Below, piece by piece: positions 24,001 to 56,630 of a stretch of DNA of 64,000 bases (position 1 is the stretch's first letter; each line of letters starts with the position of its first letter). The stretch is from Liolophura sinensis (lineage: Eukaryota; Mollusca; Polyplacophora; Chitonida; Chitonidae): assembly GCF_032854445.1 (NCBI RefSeq), contig NC_088306.1, positions 22,603,764-22,667,763 on the forward strand. Direction: 5' to 3'. Under the pieces are notes generated by a model. The model was not told where the DNA came from. It did not search any database and saw nothing but the letters and a program-made list of their open reading frames with translations. The translations under genes and the position numbers were made by a program.

Positions 24001-27000
24001 TGAATTTCACACTGTTAAAAAACGACACACCCAAAATCCATCTATCTATGGGATACCAACACACTGGCCCCCATAATCTCAGTGTTACAATACTACAGGT
24101 ACACCCAGCTCTGTTTAGATGTTATATAGCATTCAACATGTTAACAGCGCTGTCATGAACATCTGACACATCCAGTTGTTTGCCTACGTTTTCATGAACA
24201 TCTGACACCTCCAGTTGTTTGCCTATGTTGTCATGAACATCTGACACCTCCAGTTGTTTGCCTACGCTGTCATGAACATCTGACACCTCCAGTTGTTTGC
24301 CTACGTTTTCATGAACATCTGACACCTCCAGTTGTTTGCCTATGTTGTCATGAACATCTGACACCTCCAGTTGTTTGCCTACGCTGTCATGAACATCTGA
24401 CACCTCCAGTTGTTTGCCTACGCTGTCATTAACATCTGACACCTCTAGTTGTTTGCCTATGCTGTCCTGTCATGAACATCTGACACCTCCAGTTGTTTGC
24501 CTATGTTGTCAAGAATATCTGACACCTCAAGTTGTTTGCCCATGTGTCATGAACATCTGACACCTCCAGTTGTTTGCCTATGTGTCATGAACAACTGACA
24601 CCTCCAGTTGTTTGCCTACGCTGTCATTAACATCTGGCATTCCAGTTGTTTGCCTATGCTGTCATGAACATCTGACACCTCTAGTTATTTGCCTATGCTG
24701 TCCTGTCATGAACATCTGACACCTCCAGTTGTTTGCCTATGTTGTCAAGAATATCTGACACCTCCAGTTGTTTGCCTATGCTGTCATGAACATCTGACAC
24801 CTCCAGTTGTATGCCTAAGCTGTCATAATCATCTGACACCTCTAGTTGTTTGCCTATGCTGTCATGAATACCTGACATCTCCAGTTGTTTGCTTATGCTG
24901 TCATGAATATTTGACACCTCTAGTTGTTTGCCTATGCTGTCATGAACATCTGACACCTCCAGTTGTTTGCCTATGCTGTCATGAACATCTGACACCTCCA
25001 GTTGTTTGCCTATGTTGTCAAGAATATCTGACACCTCCAGTTGTTTGCCTATGCTGTCATGAACATCTGACACCTCCAGTTGTTTGCCTATGCTGTCATG
25101 GACATCTGACACCTCCAGTTGTTTGCCTATGTTGTCAAGAATATCTGACACCTCCAGTTGTTTGCCTATGCTGTCATGAACATCTGACACCTCTAGTTGT
25201 TTGCCTATGCTGTCATGAATATCTGACACCTCTAGTTGTTTGCCTATGCTGTCATGAACATCTGACACCTCCAGTTGTTTGCCTATGCTGTCATGAACAT
25301 CTGACACCTCCAGTTGTTTGCCTATGTTGTCAAGAATATCTGACACCTCCAGTTGTTTGCCTATGTTGTCATGAACATCTGACACCTCTAGTTGTTTGCC
25401 TATGCTGTCATGAACATCTGACACCTCCAGTTGTTTGCCTACGCTGTCATTAACATCTGGCATTCCAGTTGTTTGCCTATGCTGTCATGAACATCTGACA
25501 CCTCTAGTTATTTGCCTATGCTGTCCTGTCATGAACATCTGACACCTCCAGTTGTTTGCCTATGTTGTCAAGAATATCTGACACCTCCAGTTGTTTGCCT
25601 ATGATGTCATGAACATCTGACACCTCCAGTTGTATGCCTATGTTCTCAAGAATATCTGACACCTCCAGTTGTTTGCCTAAGCTGTCATAATCATCTGACA
25701 CCTCTAGTTGTTTGCCTATGTTGTCATGAATACCTGACACCTCTAGTTGTTTGCCTATGCTGTCATGAATATCTGACATCTCCAGTTGTTTGCCTATGCT
25801 GTCATGAATATTTGACACCTCCAGTTGTTTGCCTATGCTGTCATGAACATCTGACACCTCTAGTTGTTTGCCTATGCTGTCATGAACATCTGACACCTCC
25901 AGTTGTTTGCCTATGTTGTCAAGAATGTCTGACACCTCCAGTTGTTTGCCTACACTGTCATGAATATCTGACACCTCCAGTTGTTTGCCTATGCTGTCAT
26001 GAATATTTGACACCTCCAGTTGTTTGCCTATGCTGTCAGGAACATCTGACACCTCCAGTTGTTTGCCTATGCTGTCATGGACATCTGACACCTCCAGTTG
26101 TTTGCCTATGTTGTCAAGAATATCTGACACCTCCAGTTGTTTGCCTATGCTGTCAGGAACATCTGACACCTCTAGTTGTTTGCCTATGCCGTCATGAACA
26201 TCTCACACCTCCAGTTGTTTGCCTATGTTGTCAAGAATATCTGACACCTCCAGTTGTTTGCCTACGCTGTCATGACTATCTGACACTTCCAGTTGTTTGC
26301 CTACTCATGGTTATTCTCTCTATCTAGGCGAACCCTTACACACTGGATACAATCCAGAGGTCGTCCACAACTTGACACCACAGAGATATAAAACTTGCAT
26401 GAAATTCTGCAGATAACATTCCACTTTAGCGCTGACTACTGATGAGGGTAGACATGACCATACAGGCCCGAAACGCCTACATCTTTAGCATATCTACATA
26501 TATGTGAACCATATTACCTGATGTGTACATACACGTAGCCATCTTTGTACAATTACTGTACTTTTTACACACTGGACAGTGTCGAGTCTGAGTCTACCCC
26601 AGTTAAACTTTGGGCGTGGCTTACAGGATCAGTTTTCTCTGAATCATGTATATACTCTAACTTTAAAGAAATTACCACAGCACTAAGTTGTACAGCTCAT
26701 AAAAGGCTTTTTTTCAATCTACACATACTTCCATCAAAACAATACTAAAATCTATAGACTGGCTCTTTCCATCAGTAAGCTGTTCCCATGAACAGGCTAT
26801 TCCAATCAATATGCCTAAATTCACATGATCAATATACAGGCCCAACTTCACACCAACAGGCTATTCCAATCAATATGCCTAAATTCATATCACCAACTTC
26901 ACATCACTAACTTCACAACAACAGGCTATTCCAATCAATATGTCTAAATTGACATCACCAACTTCACATCACTAACTTCACACCAACAGGCTATTCCAAT

Positions 27001-36000: not shown

Positions 36001-39000
36001 ATCTGTAAATCTACAAGTAAGTCTATATGTTACGAAAAAAAGACACATACACGTGCACATTTTAATGTCATAAAATCATACGGCAGTCATACAAGTACAG
36101 GCTCCTTGGCCGAGGTAGTTAGCATGTCAGTGCTGCGTAATGATCCAAAAGCCTCTCACCAATGCAGTCGATGAGAGTTTGAGTTCCCTGCATGTGAACT
36201 CGCTGTGAGTTTTTTGTCCAGTTCTGATATTTTTCTCATTTTCCTGTTTTTCAAAGATTTCCCATACATGTATATGTCTTCAACATAAAAAAAATCTGGG
36301 ACAGTCCAAATTTCTCACAAATTCGATTTTGATTGTTCATTTTTATTTCTACACCTCCTCAGCCATTGCAAAAATATTTGTGTCACCTGTAAAACAACAA
36401 TTTAAATTGGAGTGGCCTTTATGGAAAGGTGGAAGACGGAGTATCTTGATGACTCCCTGTTAAACTCTGGGGCTGAACCGACACCTCCTGTGACTCAGCA
36501 GTTGATATCATTGTAAACAAGCATTAGAATTGGCCGCTGGTTACATTATATCCATGTATGTCACTGGGTTAATCGTCTTCATCATATCAACCTTGTTCTC
36601 TGTGCATACCCCCAAAATATGGTTAAGAGGTTAATCGAACGACGCAGTCCACGAGCAGGCGTGTGACTTCAGTACTGTATATGCGAACATAATAATACAG
36701 AGACGTTAATTCCCCAATAATAAGCATAATGGTTGACCATTAACACAGTTTTGTGGCAGATGTTGGTCAGCTATTCATTAAGTGATCTGATCAATACTAA
36801 ATAGGAAGATTGGGGGCAAAGTCTATCCGTGAACAAACACAATAGTTGAGCTTCAACCAAGGTTTGAACAATGTGACTGATGAGGCTGTGAGTTCAAATC
36901 CAGGACTGGCTACCCTCAAATCTGAAATTAATCTGAAATGTTAATCAGTCACTTGCCAGGTCAGAGTTTACTCCAGGCCCTGTTAAAAGAGACTTTTTAC
37001 TAAGAAGGAGAGAACACTTCTATAACATAATAACTTGCACTACTGTGTTAACAGCCTCAGTGGGAATGTTAATCCCTAGGTTGCCAGAGGTCAGTGTGTT
37101 TTACTCCAGGCAATCCTGCAATTCCCTTGTATGAGGATTTTTAACAAGGAAGTGAGTTCTGACTCACTGAATGCAATGTATAGCAATAATAACTTTTACT
37201 ACTGCCTTGAACAGCGTAAGTATGTTAATCAGTAACTTTCCAGAGGTCAGTGGTTTACTCCAGGCACTCCTCACTGGTACAACAGGTACAACCAAAAACC
37301 TGACTACCACTGTATACACGCACACAGGTGGATTTTTCTTTTGAAGTACAACATTATTAACGCTAATGAAATAAATCAAATAGGTTACCATCATTTACAT
37401 TAAAAAATAGTCTGCCACCAACCTGCGGATTGTCATGGGTTTCCCCTAGGATCTGCCTGGTTTTGTCCCATCATACTGGTCGACACTGTGGTGTGGAATA
37501 TTCTTGAGTGCGGTGTAAAACACCAATCACATAAATAAATGAATAAATAAATTGAAAAATAAATATAAAAGAATTTTTTATAAATCAATAAAAATGTAAA
37601 AGACCCGAGCCTACTCTAACAAGATAGTGATAAAATCTACATCAAAAAGGGGCATAGCAGCTGCTGTCAAATCTAGCTGTCTTTTCTGTGTTAATGTGCT
37701 AAAAACTGAAGCACCCAGGTAGGCCATGCATTTAACAAGTCCACCAGAAAAGACATGTCCTACTTGTACACTCACAAATGATAATAAACATAAACACATA
37801 CAGCCTCCTCTTACACCATCTCAGAAAATACACACTAATGCACTTGCCGTAATTCCTCAACCGTTTTGCACATGAAGGAGCAACTTTCAGTGTGATTTAA
37901 ATGCATTTTTTCTACCTGATTTACTTACTTAATTGGTGTTTTACGCTGTACTCAAGAATATTTCACTTATACGATGGCGGCCAGCATTATGGTGGGTGGA
38001 AACCATGCAGAGCTCGGGAGAAACCCACGGCCATCTGCAGCTTGCTGGCTGACCTTCCCACATACGGCCGGAGAGGAAGCCAGCATGAGCTGGACTTGAG
38101 CTTACAGCGACCGCATTGGTGAGAGGCTCCTGGGTCATTGTACTGCCCTGATGTACTAACCAACTGAGCCACAGAGGCCCCTAGCATTTTTTCTGAGTTG
38201 ATATTAGGCACAAAACGGTATGGGTTGGGTTGCCAACTATAGGCCTCCCGAACTTCAATAAAATTATTAGTCTACACAGAATAATGCTCTTGGACTATAC
38301 TTCGAGGAACATTTTTCAACCCAGTGAAAAGGTTGAAGAATTACAGTAGCTCTACTGTCTTCATAAGTATAATTAAAATTATTATTATTATTTTTTTTTT
38401 TAGCAAAATGAGGTACAAGTGCACACTTAAAATACACAGCCTGAGCGATTTATCCATACAGTGGTCTTCATATTACAATTTTTTTCATAGGCTGAAAAGC
38501 AGTATCCATGCAAAAGCAAGGATAAAAGGCTGTCAATTTTATTAGTGGAGAAATCTTGAAAAAGAACTTAAAAATTTCCTGCCTATGACTGGGAGTGATC
38601 CAGTGGTTAACTGCAAGCGGTTGTATCTCACCAATGATCTCACCAATGATCCACGTCAAGCTTTCTTACAAAAACAGGAAACAGTTCGTGGACACTGGAG
38701 TGCGATACAGACATCACCTGTTACTAACTAAGCCGTGATAGTTCGAGTACATTTACACCATGATAAATTGGAAAAAGTAAAATAGTTCATGACCATTAAT
38801 TTCAAACAAATAATGGTAAAGAGAAAATTGTCCAGAGTGTTACATAAGATATACATATATATATACACACATGTATATTATACCTACCATGCATCCATTA
38901 ACCAACATACATGTTAAAACTGAAGATACATGTATTTGTATCTTTGGAAAATCACAAAGGATACTTTCATTATAGCTCCTTAATTACATGTACATTGTCC

Positions 39001-52479: not shown

Positions 52480-52609
52480 TCACTTGACGTATTTCTCCAT
52501 GAACTTTTTGTGGAATTCAGACCTCAGTGTATCATTGATAAAACCCCGACCTTTCTGTCTCTCTTCATCTCCTTTTGCACAATTTTTGAAAACAACATCA
52601 TCATCCCAT
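52480..52609 (-). CDS. CWC15: CWC15 exon 6 with stop codon
   Basis: Acceptor ACCCTTTCAG, 130 nt including TGA at 52480-52482. Encodes [27 protein letters not shown] and MEKYVK, the most conserved part of the family. Confidence 0.96.
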
Positions 52610-55600
52610 CTGAAAGGGTAAATTAGATCATAGATAGATTTAAAGGCAGACAGATTATGGGATCGCTGAACGTATACACTTTTTAAAGAGCTACTCACAT
52701 CTTATTAATCTCTATGTTTAGAAACAAGGTTAATTGATACATATCAAAAAATCTGGATTGTTCTATGAACAACTAATTGGCATAATATTAATACCTTTTT
52801 AGCAAGTTTCCAAGAATCATACGAAAAAAAAAATGTTCAACTTTAGCCTGACATCACATCACACAAGAACACATCTTCAAATCTTCAACATGAGGCCAAT
52901 TATACAAATACTAATGAAGATTTTGGTTTTGTGTGAATGATTATGGCTTAATGCCACATCTGATTTTGTTTTTGCAGGAACTCCAGGTGTTAAATTGTAC
53001 ATGCTAACCCTTCTACAATCATGGTGCCACTTCTGTTTTGCTAAGTTCCTTTGTCAGTCTAGTAAATCTGACATGATACATGGCCACAAAATGCTAACGC
53101 TGTCAAGTTTACCTTCTCTTCACTTTGAACTCAGCCATCTTTTCCTGGTTCAAAAGGGGATTCCCCTTGAGAATGTTCTCTGTTCTGATTCTCTCTTCCT
53201 CTACCTTCTTCTCAGCTTCCTATTCAAACAAAAACAATACGTCATAATGGTGTGTATGTACAACATTCCTAACAATTTTTCAGTCATATGACGACGAGGT
53301 GTGTGTGTATATATAGACATGTACATGCTGTATCTTCTCTTGTGGCAACTTGTTTATTTGCCAGCATTATATCTCAAAAACTTATTCAGAGATTTTCATG
53401 CAACTTGTGAAGAACAGTTTAAACTAGATTAACTTCTTCATATTGAAACGATATTGAAATGATAAGAATAAGGGGAGGTAACTTAATGATAAAGACGCCT
53501 TGGTGGAAGTGCCCTTCCAGAACTCTCTTCCTTATTCAAGACTACATCACACCAATCTTTCTCAGCCCAGAACACCTTTGAATTTATATGCCAATGTATA
53601 CATAGTTCTGAATGTGTACCTGTTTGGCTTTTTCTGAAGCCCTCTCTTTCTTGATTTTCTGCAGTTCTGCTAGCAGAGCAGCTGTGTCATCTTCATCATC
53701 AGAGTCGGAATCTTCATCCTGAAAAACAACACACAGCAAGATAGCGGCTAGCCATCACCTTCAAAATCTGACAAAATATAAACTGGTATGGTCACATCAG
53801 TACAAAACAATTCTCATACCTGGAATGCTTATTGGCTGCTGCCTTTCAGCCAATCAGAGCCATACTCGGAATCTATAATTCCTTGTCAGCTGGGGAACCT
53901 GCTCCCGGATCTAGAATAATTCTTTTAAGGTCTGAGCGCATGTATTATTCTGTCAGATACACTCTCTGGATTTAATGGGCATGAAATAAACAAACAGGTC
54001 TTTGGACGAAACCATTACCTCAACTTATGGAGCTAATGTTACTTGGGAATTGACAAGGACTGAAAGCACAGAGATTTGGCAAACACTTGTCAACAAGATT
54101 AAGAATGCAAATTCAAACCAAAACACAGAAATATCTTCAACAAAGGGAAATGACTTTTACATGTCTTCCCTAACTGCTTCAATTCTCAAATACAAATACG
54201 ACTGGTGTATTTCTCACTTTTGCTTTATACCCAAAGGAAACAAGACTGTTAAAGACTTGTTCTCAAGTATAACATGTAGCAGACACACCTCAAGACGTAG
54301 CTACACTGTGAAACTAAAGAATTGCATCATCATGGGAGATCTGCTAAAGACCTAACATCATAACAACTGCAGGGTTGACGACTTACTTCATCGTCCACAG
54401 GGTCATCAGCATCAAGATTAGAGGCTGGCACTTGTTCTATCCTGGGTCTCTTACTGGTACTACTGCTGCTACTGCTGGCACCCCCACTGGAAGACTCTGT
54501 TCAACAAGGGAGGTAACTGCATTATGCTTCTATTCATGAACGAGACCTGTACTGCATATAGAATCAAATTTAATTCAAGTTTTGCATTTGAAAATTTGAA
54601 TGTTTTATTCCAAACAACAAATTGCTTGCATGTAAAAATGTTTATTATAAAAATGCAGACATCAAAACAAAATTCTTATTTCTGTCATAAAGATGATAAT
54701 ACCAACGATTTTATAAACAAATTTCAGTTTGGGATCCAGATAACATACATCATCTTTTGATTCATGAACACATCCTATCTCTACCTCTGTTTCTATCCCG
54801 TTTTTCTCGTGCAGCTCGCTCACGATCTTCAAGGTCTCTCCTGAAGTCACGCCCACGCACTTCCTCGTTGGAGTTTTGCCCTTCTTGCCTGATAAAACAA
54901 ACAGGATTCATATTAACAGAGTGTATTAGCATGAATAACTGTTAATGCGAGTTTTACAAGAGGATATACCAGAGACTTTGAGCAAAACATCCATATACGC
55001 TACTGAAATCAAATTTTTTTTCATTCACCAAAAACAGCTCCAACTATTGCCGTTCAGTACCTCTAATTTTCGCAGTGCTGAAATGAATCTAAGGCTTGAA
55101 AACAGTTATGCTAAGACCTGAATAACAAGGTTTACAAACTTTACTATGGATTACAAGTGGTAATACATGCTTGTAATAGATGAGGTTGATAATGCATGCC
55201 AGGCAATTTTGGAGGGCATTCTAAAACAGTAGCCAAAATTTGATTGCATCTGCAATGATCAATTTTTTGCCAAAAATCTATGGTATAGTCTCTTTAATGC
55301 AATAAATACTCATATCTCCACAAACACTACTTTATTTATTTGGTGTGAGGAAAACGGGTAGAGCCAGGGTAAACTCACAACCATCTACTGGTTGCTGGCA
55401 GACCTTCCCACGTACGATCGGAGAGGAAGCCGGCATGAGCTGAACTTATAGCGACCACATTGGTGATGGGTGAATATTATCTCATATAAATTATTTGCAA
55501 TAATCAAGTGCTGAAAGTTGCCAGAGAAAAATCCATGTTTCGAGTTATGTACCCACACACATTTTGCATTCAAACTTTGGTATAGTTTGATGTGAACAGC

Positions 55601-56630
55601 AACTCACCTTTATTTGAGTTTGTCATAAACAGGCAGAGCCACACACCTGCATTTGAGTTTGTCAAAAATGGGCAGAGTCACACACCTGCATTTGAGTTTG
55701 TCAAAAATGGGCAGAGTCACACACCTGCATTTGAGTTTGTCAAAAACAGGCAGTCACACACCTGCATTTGAGTTTGTCAAAAACAGGCAGAGTCATACAC
55801 CTGCATTTGAGTTTGTCATAAACAGGCAGAGTCACACACCTGCATTAGAGTTTGTCATAAACAGGCAGAGCCACACACCTGCATTTGAGTTTGTCAAAAA
55901 TGGGCAGAGTCACACACCTGCATTTGAGTTTGTCAAAAATGGGCAGAGTCACACACCTGCATTTGAGTTTGTCAAAAACAGGCAGTCACCCACCTGCATT
56001 TGAGTTTGTCAAAAACAGGCAGAGTCATACACCTGCATTTGAGTTTGTCATAAACAGGCAGAGTCACACACCTGCATTAGAGTTTGTCATAAACAGGCAG
56101 AGCCACACACCTGCATTTGAGTTTGTCAAAAATGGGCAGAGTCACACACCTGCATTTGAGTTTGTCAAAAACGGGCAGAGTCACACACCTGCATTTGAGT
56201 TTGTCAAAAACAGGCAGAGCCACACACCTGCATTTGAGTTTGTCAAAAACGGGCAGAGCCACACACCTGCATTTGAGTTTGTCAAAAACAGGCAGAGTCA
56301 CACACCTGCATTTGAGTTTGTCAAAAACGGGCACAGTCACACACCTGCATTTGAGTTTGTCAAAAACGGGCAGAGTCACACACCTGGATTTGAGTTTGGC
56401 ATAAACAGGCAGAGCCACTCACCTGTACTTGAGTTTGGCATAAACGGCAGAGCCACTCACCTGCATTTGAGTTTAGCATGAATAGGCATAGCCACTCACC
56501 TGTACTTGAGTTTGGTGTGAGCCGGAAGATCTCTACTTGAGTATTGTTTTGATAAAGCACCTAAATCTCCCTCATTTTTCCCTCGACCCCCTCGAGCCGG
56601 CTCAAATGTTGGCCTAGCTGCTGTCGTCAT
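52480..56630 (-). CDS. CWC15: CWC15 spliceosome-associated protein (AD002), complete
   Basis: CWC15 is a small, largely disordered subunit of the Prp19/CDC5L-related part of the activated spliceosome and acts in nuclear pre-mRNA splicing (family knowledge). Coding exons (high to low): 56500-56630, 54785-54888, 54387-54496, 53620-53718, 53113-53219, 52480-52609. They total 681 nt, 226 residues plus TGA, against 229 in human. Every junction is GT-AG and the frame is continuous. The N-terminus [18 protein letters not shown], the internal [18 protein letters not shown] and [10 protein letters not shown], the acidic run before [18 protein letters not shown], and the C-terminus [14 protein letters not shown] to [11 protein letters not shown] are almost those of the human protein. 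The start lies in a CACCATGA context. Unusual: the exon-1 donor forms the edge of a 39-bp tandem array made of copies of that donor. CWC15 lies about 2.8 kb upstream of RUBCN on the same strand. Confidence 0.97.
53113..53219 (-). CDS. CWC15: CWC15 exon 5
   Basis: Acceptor TTTGAATAG, donor GTAAAC, 107 nt. Encodes [19 protein letters not shown] and FKVKRR, matching ERIRMENILSGNPLLN. Confidence 0.93.
53268..53300. mobile_element. Family F fragment
   Basis: CAATTTTTCAGTCATATGAC followed by GACGA, a block of a dispersed repeat common in molluscs. Confidence 0.45.
53620..53718 (-). CDS. CWC15: CWC15 exon 4
   Basis: Acceptor GTTTTTCAG, donor GTACAC (weak), 99 nt. Encodes [20 protein letters not shown] and then KIKKERA. 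Confidence 0.94.
54387..54496 (-). CDS. CWC15: CWC15 exon 3
   Basis: Acceptor TTGTTGAACAG, donor GTAAGT, 110 nt. Encodes a polyserine stretch and [19 protein letters not shown], matching SKKPRLDQIPAANLDADDP. Confidence 0.95.
54785..54888 (-). CDS. CWC15: CWC15 exon 2
   Basis: Acceptor GTTTTATCAG, donor GTAGAG, 104 nt. Encodes [19 protein letters not shown] and the charged continuation, matching the conserved arginine-rich part of CWC15. Confidence 0.93.
55331..55470 (-). mobile_element. tRNA-headed SINE with internal deletion
   Basis: TTTATTTATTTGGTGTGAGG joins directly to ACCATCTACTGGTTGCTGGC and GGAAGCCGGCATGAGCTGAA, so the CATAATGCTGGCCGCC region is missing. Confidence 0.78.
55598..56499 (-). 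repeat. 39-bp tandem array of CWC15 exon-1 5' splice-site copies
   Basis: About 23 units. On the minus strand each ends ..CAAACTCAAATGCAG followed by GTGTGTGACTCTGCC. Copies at 56461 and 56423 keep CAG/GTGAGTGG, like the true donor at 56500. The middle copies read GTGTGTGA, and the farthest one (about 55605) again reads GTGAGTTG. The true exon end (ACCAAACTCAAGTACAG then GTGAGTGG) differs by about one base from the copy at 56423. Confidence 0.95.
56500..56630 (-). CDS. CWC15: CWC15 coding exon 1
   Basis: 131 nt encoding [15 protein letters not shown] to HTKLKY, ending at donor GTGAGTGG. Read through in frame, the codon after the junction is TGA, so failure to use this donor would truncate the protein. 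The last ~17 exon bases and the donor are repeated downstream in the array at 55598-56499. Confidence 0.97.

Follow-up and report, generated by a model that had tools for sequence, protein, structure and literature searches.

Tandem copies of a 5′ splice site form a minisatellite in the first intron of the chiton CWC15 gene, with similar arrays at other exon–intron junctions

The stretch of DNA analysed here (the window) consists of 64,000 bases of contig NC_088306.1 of the chiton Liolophura sinensis, whose assembly was first published under the name Liolophura japonica, a correction later renaming the species L. sinensis (PMC12441733); all coordinates are window positions unless stated otherwise. 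The gene for the splicing factor CWC15 is encoded on the minus strand (52483–56630), and its first intron begins with a minisatellite in which the exon 1/intron 1 junction is repeated. The Pfam family PF04889 was matched in five of the six open reading frames scanned in the gene, two of these five matches being below the Pfam cut-off. The coding part of exon 1 (56500–56630) ends, on the minus strand, in AAA CTC AAG TAC AG, the last codon being split AG|G, and is followed directly by GTGAGT. Intron 1 (54889–56499) is 1611 bases long and contains AATAAA at 55614, 55340 and 55336 and ATTAAA at 55298. The start of exon 2 (54765–54888) was placed from an open reading frame, a Pfam match below the cut-off, an acceptor and the match to the human protein; the first base of the exon is 54888, preceded by TTTTATCAG, with the acceptor reading TATCAG|GCAAGAA. 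Later exons (52483–53754) are represented by PF04889 matches in the frames 53587–53754, 53112–53219 and 52483–52701, the ends of which are approximate. When exons 1 and 2 are joined (KLKYR-QEGQ), the product aligns with human CWC15 (PDB entry 5mqf, E-value 9.4e-33) with no gap across the junction, so the outermost, exon-side copy of the repeated unit is, on this homology, the authentic junction.

The minisatellite (55605–56514, minus strand) is reported by Tandem Repeats Finder (TRF) as a repeat of period 39 with 23.5 copies and 92% matches. Counting on the minus strand with AGGTG as the anchor gives 24 copies in register, with the donor G running from 56499, the genuine one, to 55607; there are thus 23 extra donors, and the array takes up the first 895 of the 1611 bases of the intron. 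Of the bases in the unit, 16 come from the exon and 23 from the intron, and the exon part that copies have in common with the junction reaches at most 16 bases, with a median of 15. AG|GT is present in all 24 copies, and 20 of the 23 steps from one copy to the next measure 39 bases, the others being 38 (one) and 37 (two). A preliminary description of this DNA had read the array as copies of the exon–intron junction itself, about 16 exon bases plus the donor, with the genuine junction outermost and about 23 extra donors in the first 900 or so intron bases, and in all of this it proved accurate.

The copies fall into a uniform centre and more divergent ends. GTGAGT is present in four of the 24 (the first three and the last), the others having GTGTGT (17), GTGTAT (two) or GTGGGT (one). 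The genuine 5′ splice site, recognised by its register, its pairing to U1 and the human alignment, is cag|GTGAGT (56494–56502); copies 2 and 3 (56417–56463, donor G at 56460 and 56422) carry strong donors of the same sequence. They are followed by 20 central copies (55641–56386), comprising the 17 with GTGTGT, the two with GTGTAT and the one with GTGGGT, at 55993, and by a last, diverged copy, aag|GTGAGT (55602–55610). GTGAG is therefore retained in copies 2, 3 and the last, as had been described, and the GTGTG ascribed to the central copies is present in 17 of the 20. Compared with the central consensus, copy 1 matches at 29 of 39 bases, copy 2 at 30 and copy 3 at 32, while the mean within the centre is about 0.95–0.99; copies 1 and 3, compared directly, are identical at 36 of 39 bases. 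The centre is thus homogenised and the edges have diverged, as computed for copies 1–3 and judged by eye for the last copy.

Pairing energies were computed against the 5′ end of U1. The genuine donor and copies 2 and 3 each reach −11.9 kcal/mol, so the true donor pairs as well as the best copies and better than most of the central ones, for which the values are −7.4 (GTGTGT), −6.7 (GTGTAT) and −11.1 kcal/mol (GTGGGT); the last copy reaches −10.4 kcal/mol. All 23 extra copies, from −6.7 to −11.9 kcal/mol, pair better than every one of the 45 other GT sites scored in the intron (54890–55599), the best of which has −5.7 kcal/mol. Such values would suit a docking platform, in which unspliced copies bind the U1 small nuclear ribonucleoprotein and shield the first intron from cleavage at AATAAA; this protection, telescripting, is treated in the literature, and one AATAAA lies in the last copy (55614) and two past the array (55340 and 55336). 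However, seven of the eight other junctions presented below align to the interior of a protein or profile, so that a role in first introns would leave the class unexplained, and in our judgement an intron of 1.6 kb that opens with a strong true donor has little need of added protection. We regard this function as unlikely. Recursive splice sites, or ratchet sites, have a pyrimidine tract and an AG directly before the GT and occur in very long introns. As candidates for such sites the copies were rejected: all have AG|GT, but the consensus before it, ACAAACTCAAATGCAG, is no pyrimidine tract, and intron 1, at 1611 bases, is not very long.

The reading frame through the true donor is TAC AGG TGA. 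It had been proposed that use of any distal copy would give a poison transcript, the codon after the true donor being a stop; this stands for an extension of exon 1 and does not for single units included as cassettes, since, of the 20 units from 56383 onwards, 15 taken singly have no stop in the frame of exon 1 (the five with a stop are those at 56110, 55993, 55878, 55761 and 55646). The open units could be viewed as a store of microexons, in which the AG of one unit and the GT of the next would frame exons of 39 bases, or 13 codons, that leave the frame unchanged. Against this, no pyrimidine tract is present in the ACAAACTCAAATGCAG before each AG, a coding seed and a unit divisible by three make an open frame unremarkable, and the other arrays described below have periods of 31, 33, 38, 40, 46, 48, 52 and 59 bases. 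Such a store is extremely improbable.

The array contains a record of its own turnover. A block of six units, 232 bp long, is present twice in succession (55895–56126 and 55663–55894), the two copies differing at one of 232 bases. Set against the heterozygosity of the sequenced chiton, reported as about 1.24% (PMC11068029), this single difference indicates that the duplication, or a conversion imitating one, is recent. Turnover of the array is thus recent, and from this near-identical pair of blocks, in the one haplotype read, copy number probably varies between animals. Assemblers can be misled by repeats, and one copy of the locus was read; the array might then have been mis-assembled or over-collapsed. 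The HiFi reads, however, are given an average length of 8,347 bp (PMC11068029), far exceeding the 910-bp array, and the copies bear private differences in a definite order, which makes an artefact very unlikely.

The donor columns were compared with the rest of the unit in 18 of the 20 central copies, those with a length of exactly 39 bases. One of nine donor columns is variable, versus eight of the 30 others. Better conservation of the donor columns was considered as a sign of selection and set aside; the difference is small, and nothing is drawn from means or column counts. Selection on the extra donors, whether to keep or to remove them, is not clearly visible in the columns. A query of two units against the whole genome gave 11 matches, all of them within the CWC15 array, although an absence of matches does not prove rarity; insertion of a member of some dispersed repeat family at the junction is therefore unsupported, the unit being matched only here.

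Other repeats were seen in the window. A SINE-like core (resembling a short interspersed element), AGCGACCGCATTGGTGA, occurs seven times with at most four differences, at 55450, 57094, 38106 and 17023 on the plus strand and at 36156, 20409 and 561 on the minus strand, and one of the seven sits within CWC15 intron 1. Another 39-bp array, of 55 copies, lies at 24149–26303 on the minus strand; it can be read without a stop over as many as 256 codons, as a repeat of 13 residues. The 12 larger TRF arrays alone account for 15% of the window (9,579 of 64,000 bases).

Arrays of the same kind were sought in the whole genome (609,464,459 bases in 632 contigs, of which contig C1 has 96,433,062 bases). 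The pattern consisted of three AGGTRAGT words spaced 30–60 bases apart, with the reversed word as the control. It was found 2184 times, versus 1161 times for the reversed word. When C was required before every word, the numbers were 1104 and 254, as expected if many of the words are true donors. Examination of 100 of the 2184 matches gave 19 clusters, all of them on C1 (0.32–5.48 Mb), and for all 19 the exon-side end was taken; seven further clusters from the matches listed for the C-preceded pattern bring the total to 26 arrays besides that of CWC15. For each array the longest reading frame reaching it was scanned with Pfam, and seven of the 26 gave matches at an E-value of 0.01 or less: ankyrin (L013), a branching glycosyltransferase (L017), an SNF2 domain (L019), HEAT (L020), a fucosidase (L028), an Fe-hydrogenase (L029) and the BMS1/TSR1 C-terminal domain (L075), those of L020 and L028 being below Pfam's own cut-off. 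Five promising frames (L019, L020, L029, L070 and L075), trimmed to the presumed exon, were also compared with PDB sequences. L075 matches BMS1 (5.4e-26), L029 matches Fe-hydrogenases (1.6e-7) and L070 matches 2-oxoglutarate dehydrogenase (OGDH, 6e-21; its Pfam match reaches only 0.017), while L019 and L020 match one helicase-like chain at different places. We take this chain to be Mot1/BTAF1, and the animal relative of the Fe-hydrogenase-like protein would presumably be CIAO3.

An exon identified by homology thus stands at the start of eight of the 26 other arrays: BTAF1-like (two), OGDH, BMS1, Fe-hydrogenase-like, fucosidase, ankyrin and branching glycosyltransferase. Five more (L011, L014, L018, L071 and L073) have the look of a coding exon by eye only and were left uncounted, and in the remaining 13 no exon was seen, which does not prove its absence. 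L019 and L020, at 4.18 and 4.19 Mb of C1, each have a junction-born array of donors with a different unit, apparently in two introns of one BTAF1-like gene. At L074 (C1, 15.60 Mb) an ABC-transporter-like exon, seen by eye at about position 966 of the locus, has a different array a few bases past its donor, the donor-word match being about 2 kb further on. On another contig, C99, seven COX1 matches in steps of about 15.5 kb (8348–102844) represent mitochondrial genomes placed head to tail, either a concatemer of the assembly or a nuclear array. The mitochondrial genes of contig C632, named by eye from their open reading frames except for COX1, which was matched to a family, stand in an order of molluscan appearance, and an amphioxus origin, considered on account of the mirages discussed below, was rejected.

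The exon content of the unit was then measured at nine junctions, CWC15 and the eight others, by extending each copy against the junction of the same array; the search for copies was confined to the intron side, the exon being directly upstream in all nine. The median number of exon bases common to copy and junction is 15 for CWC15, 23 for L013, 39 for L017, 21 for L019, 12 for L020, 3 for L028, 35 for L029, 34.5 for L070 and 36 for L075. As a control, copies compared with the junctions of other genes (n = 922) have a median of 2, with 95% at 7 or fewer and a maximum of 14. Exon sequence is therefore contained in the unit at eight of the nine junctions, including CWC15 and seven of the eight others (12–42 exon bases). 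The period of the CWC15 unit, 39 bases, falls within the range of the others given above. In the Fe-hydrogenase-like gene the part fetched contains 11 strong donors, and it is for the extra ones among them that the median of 35 shared exon bases was obtained.

These junctions bear on a proposal of the preliminary description, in which the array could be an autoregulatory decoy. On such a model an excess of CWC15, or of spliceosomes, would shift splicing to a distal donor, the extended exon 1 would include TGA, and nonsense-mediated decay would lower the message. The in-frame TGA after the true donor, through which an alternative site brings a premature stop, is in its favour, as are the two identical strong donors 39 and 77 bases downstream of the true one and the self-control by unproductive splicing reported for many splicing regulators. 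However, the element is not tied to genes of splicing factors. The same structure is present at seven junctions in six other genes (BTAF1-like, OGDH, BMS1 and others), besides the donor-only array of the fucosidase, and going by the names found none of the eight host junctions is in a splicing gene. In addition, GTGAGT has been lost in 20 of the 23 extra donors, copy number has turned over recently, and the term CWC15 was not found among the matches listed from the literature on self-regulating unproductive splicing, as far as the text of these records extends. Autoregulation is possible but unsupported beyond its logic, and its probability is lowered further by the arrays in other genes; we consider it quite unlikely. 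The alternative named in the same description as the null, replication slippage, is the better-supported cause. The observation was confirmed in nearly every detail, and its interpretation is partly supported.

Whether donors are favoured as seeds was approached by counting. Triples per 100 single words amount to 4.28 for AGGTRAGT (2184/50,973) and 2.42 for its reverse (1161/47,894), to 2.37 for AGGARAGT (945/39,866) and 1.11 for the reverse of that (529/47,729), and to 0.62 for both the acceptor-like word TTTTNCAG (1714/274,877) and its reverse (888/143,936); these ratios treat as independent the several matches that one array can give, and the single-word counts include array copies. Among the matches listed on C1 up to 5.48 Mb, 19 clusters were counted by eye for the donor word, five for the reversed word, four for AGGARAGT and ten for the acceptor word. 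Scaled by single words, the donor rate is 3.6 times that of the reversed word, 3.7 times that of AGGARAGT and 10 times that of the acceptor word (one-sided binomial probabilities 0.005, 0.007 and 2e-9), with the limits that there are three control words, themselves differing twofold, that the clusters come from one end of one contig and that only a small part of the matches of the acceptor word can be true acceptors. The AGGARAGT clusters on C1, as judged by eye, lie mostly in its first 15 Mb or at 90–93 Mb of the 96-Mb contig (12 of 16).

Arrays were also compared with single AGGTRAGT sites, of which 40 were retained from 100 listed (plus strand, C1 below 1.51 Mb) after 45 grouped sites and 15 further along had been excluded; two of the 40 loci (L040 and L058) are repetitive by eye. 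Pfam matches of the longest frame at an E-value of 0.01 or less were obtained for three of the 40 single sites, one of them (L061) dubious, versus six of the 19 arrays (one-sided Fisher test, 0.025), and matches above Pfam's own cut-off for two of 40 versus four of 19 (0.078). The PDB comparison covered five of the 26 arrays and none of the 40 single sites, and the arrays and single sites were drawn from regions of C1 that only partly coincide; that arrays are richer in exon matches is only suggestive. Extrapolating from 19 clusters per 100 matches, the 2184 matches would correspond to about 400 clusters and, multiplied by 8/26, to about 130 with homology support, a rough estimate given that a single cluster accounts for 28 of the 100 matches and that the sample is one minisatellite-rich end of one contig. 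Arrays born at donors seem to outnumber those born at acceptors, which should be taken as a lead rather than a result. The larger claim, that 5′ splice sites seed minisatellites several-fold more often than comparable words whereas 3′ splice sites do not, with at least 100 genes affected by extrapolation, is tentative, and we would sooner doubt it than accept it.

We consider it likely that the CWC15 array is a neutral junction-born minisatellite in which selection on the protein maintains the use of the outermost copy. A segment of about 39 bp across the boundary of exon 1 and intron 1 would have been duplicated in tandem, after which slippage and unequal exchange would have lengthened the array and made its copies alike. 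Such a duplication of a boundary may be tolerated for as long as the copy on the exon side stays in use, everything else falling in the intron. The exon-adjacent copy would stay in use because the choice of a later one adds intron sequence and the in-frame TGA, probably leading to decay of the message, and the remaining copies would persist in the intron as donors that are seldom or never used, presumably with no function. The anatomy of the array, the homology across the junction, the recent turnover and the same structure at seven other homology-supported junctions in six unrelated genes make up the case for a junction-born minisatellite. The structure is not peculiar to CWC15, and the occurrence of similar repeats in unrelated genes points to a quirk of repeat growth in this genome rather than to a special self-control switch.

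Several observations weigh against this explanation. Use of the outermost copy is supported by homology rather than by RNA. Copies 2 and 3 have retained donors identical to the true one, those at 55993 and 55607 are also strong, and the donor columns are on average slightly better conserved than the others (0.988 versus 0.946). Among the other genes, the exon part of 12 bases in L020 is above the 95% mark of the control and under its maximum of 14, and the fucosidase unit, with 3 exon bases, has no clear exon part, its array beginning at the donor. Finally, arrays of the donor word exceed what the three control words predict while those of the acceptor word are not above their control, an excess that blind slippage alone leaves unexplained.

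The point of most interest is the apparent excess of donor-born over acceptor-born arrays. If donors do seed more arrays than acceptors, there would be an asymmetry in the mutation process or in what the splicing machinery tolerates, and it could be measured. The rows of near-identical donors would then amount to a natural experiment, genome-wide, on how the exon-proximal copy is chosen, and the Fe-hydrogenase-like gene and similar ones would be natural tests of splice-site choice. In classic work on duplicated donors, the intron-proximal of two equal sites is said to be often preferred; in arrays like that of the Fe-hydrogenase-like gene, such a preference would spoil the protein.

The closest known structures are the "mirages" of amphioxus, described for Adh3, the globins BflGb6 and BflGb9 and troponin C, with similar repeats in PGBD5 (PMC3087553, PMC3902484). 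Like these, the CWC15 array has a boundary duplicated in tandem, many AG/GT copies, a cluster homogenised except at its ends and the authentic junction alongside. According to the authors, the Adh3 data and reverse-transcription polymerase chain reaction on the globins suggest that regular splicing is undisturbed (PMC3087553, PMC3902484). The chiton differs in being a mollusc and not a lancelet, and in having 24 copies, compared with six and three units in the two haplotypes reported for BflGb6 (PMC3087553, PMC3902484). In the chiton donors appear favoured over acceptors, whereas for the mirages both boundaries are reported. With Adh3 as the precedent, the chiton ADH locus (the best TIGR02818 match, all such matches being below the cut-off) was considered as a second case and set aside: its one 21-bp array, of eight copies (L010, 5889–6057), is flanked by two exon matches, the nearer of them at a distance of about 190 bases.

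New introns can reportedly also arise by duplication, when a segment carrying AGGT is doubled inside an exon. The likeness of such cases (PMC4974935, PMC3443670) to CWC15 lies in the tandem copies of an AGGT-carrying segment; there a new intron is reportedly made, while in CWC15 an existing intron grows at its donor. In human genes of segmental duplications, internal tandem repeats at exon–intron boundaries are linked to new introns and alternative splicing, and the boundary minisatellites have units of about 30 bp, comparable to that of CWC15; unlike CWC15, they have about four units on average, belong to recent primate paralogs and have transcript support for alternative forms (PMC2812944). 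The CeRep25B repeat of C. elegans is likewise an intronic minisatellite, near alternative exons and associated with splicing decisions; it differs in being clustered, with regulatory motifs in many introns, and in not consisting of copies of the host junction (PMC4039745). Among the matches listed from the open-licence literature, titles and the opening parts of abstracts mention no junction-born arrays in a mollusc, which is weak evidence of absence, and a search aimed at molluscs matched only the PGBD5 paper. A kind of structure already described in lancelets is thus carried from a few lancelet genes to another phylum, where its occurrence in a mollusc, apparently frequent, is added here and suggests that it is common there.

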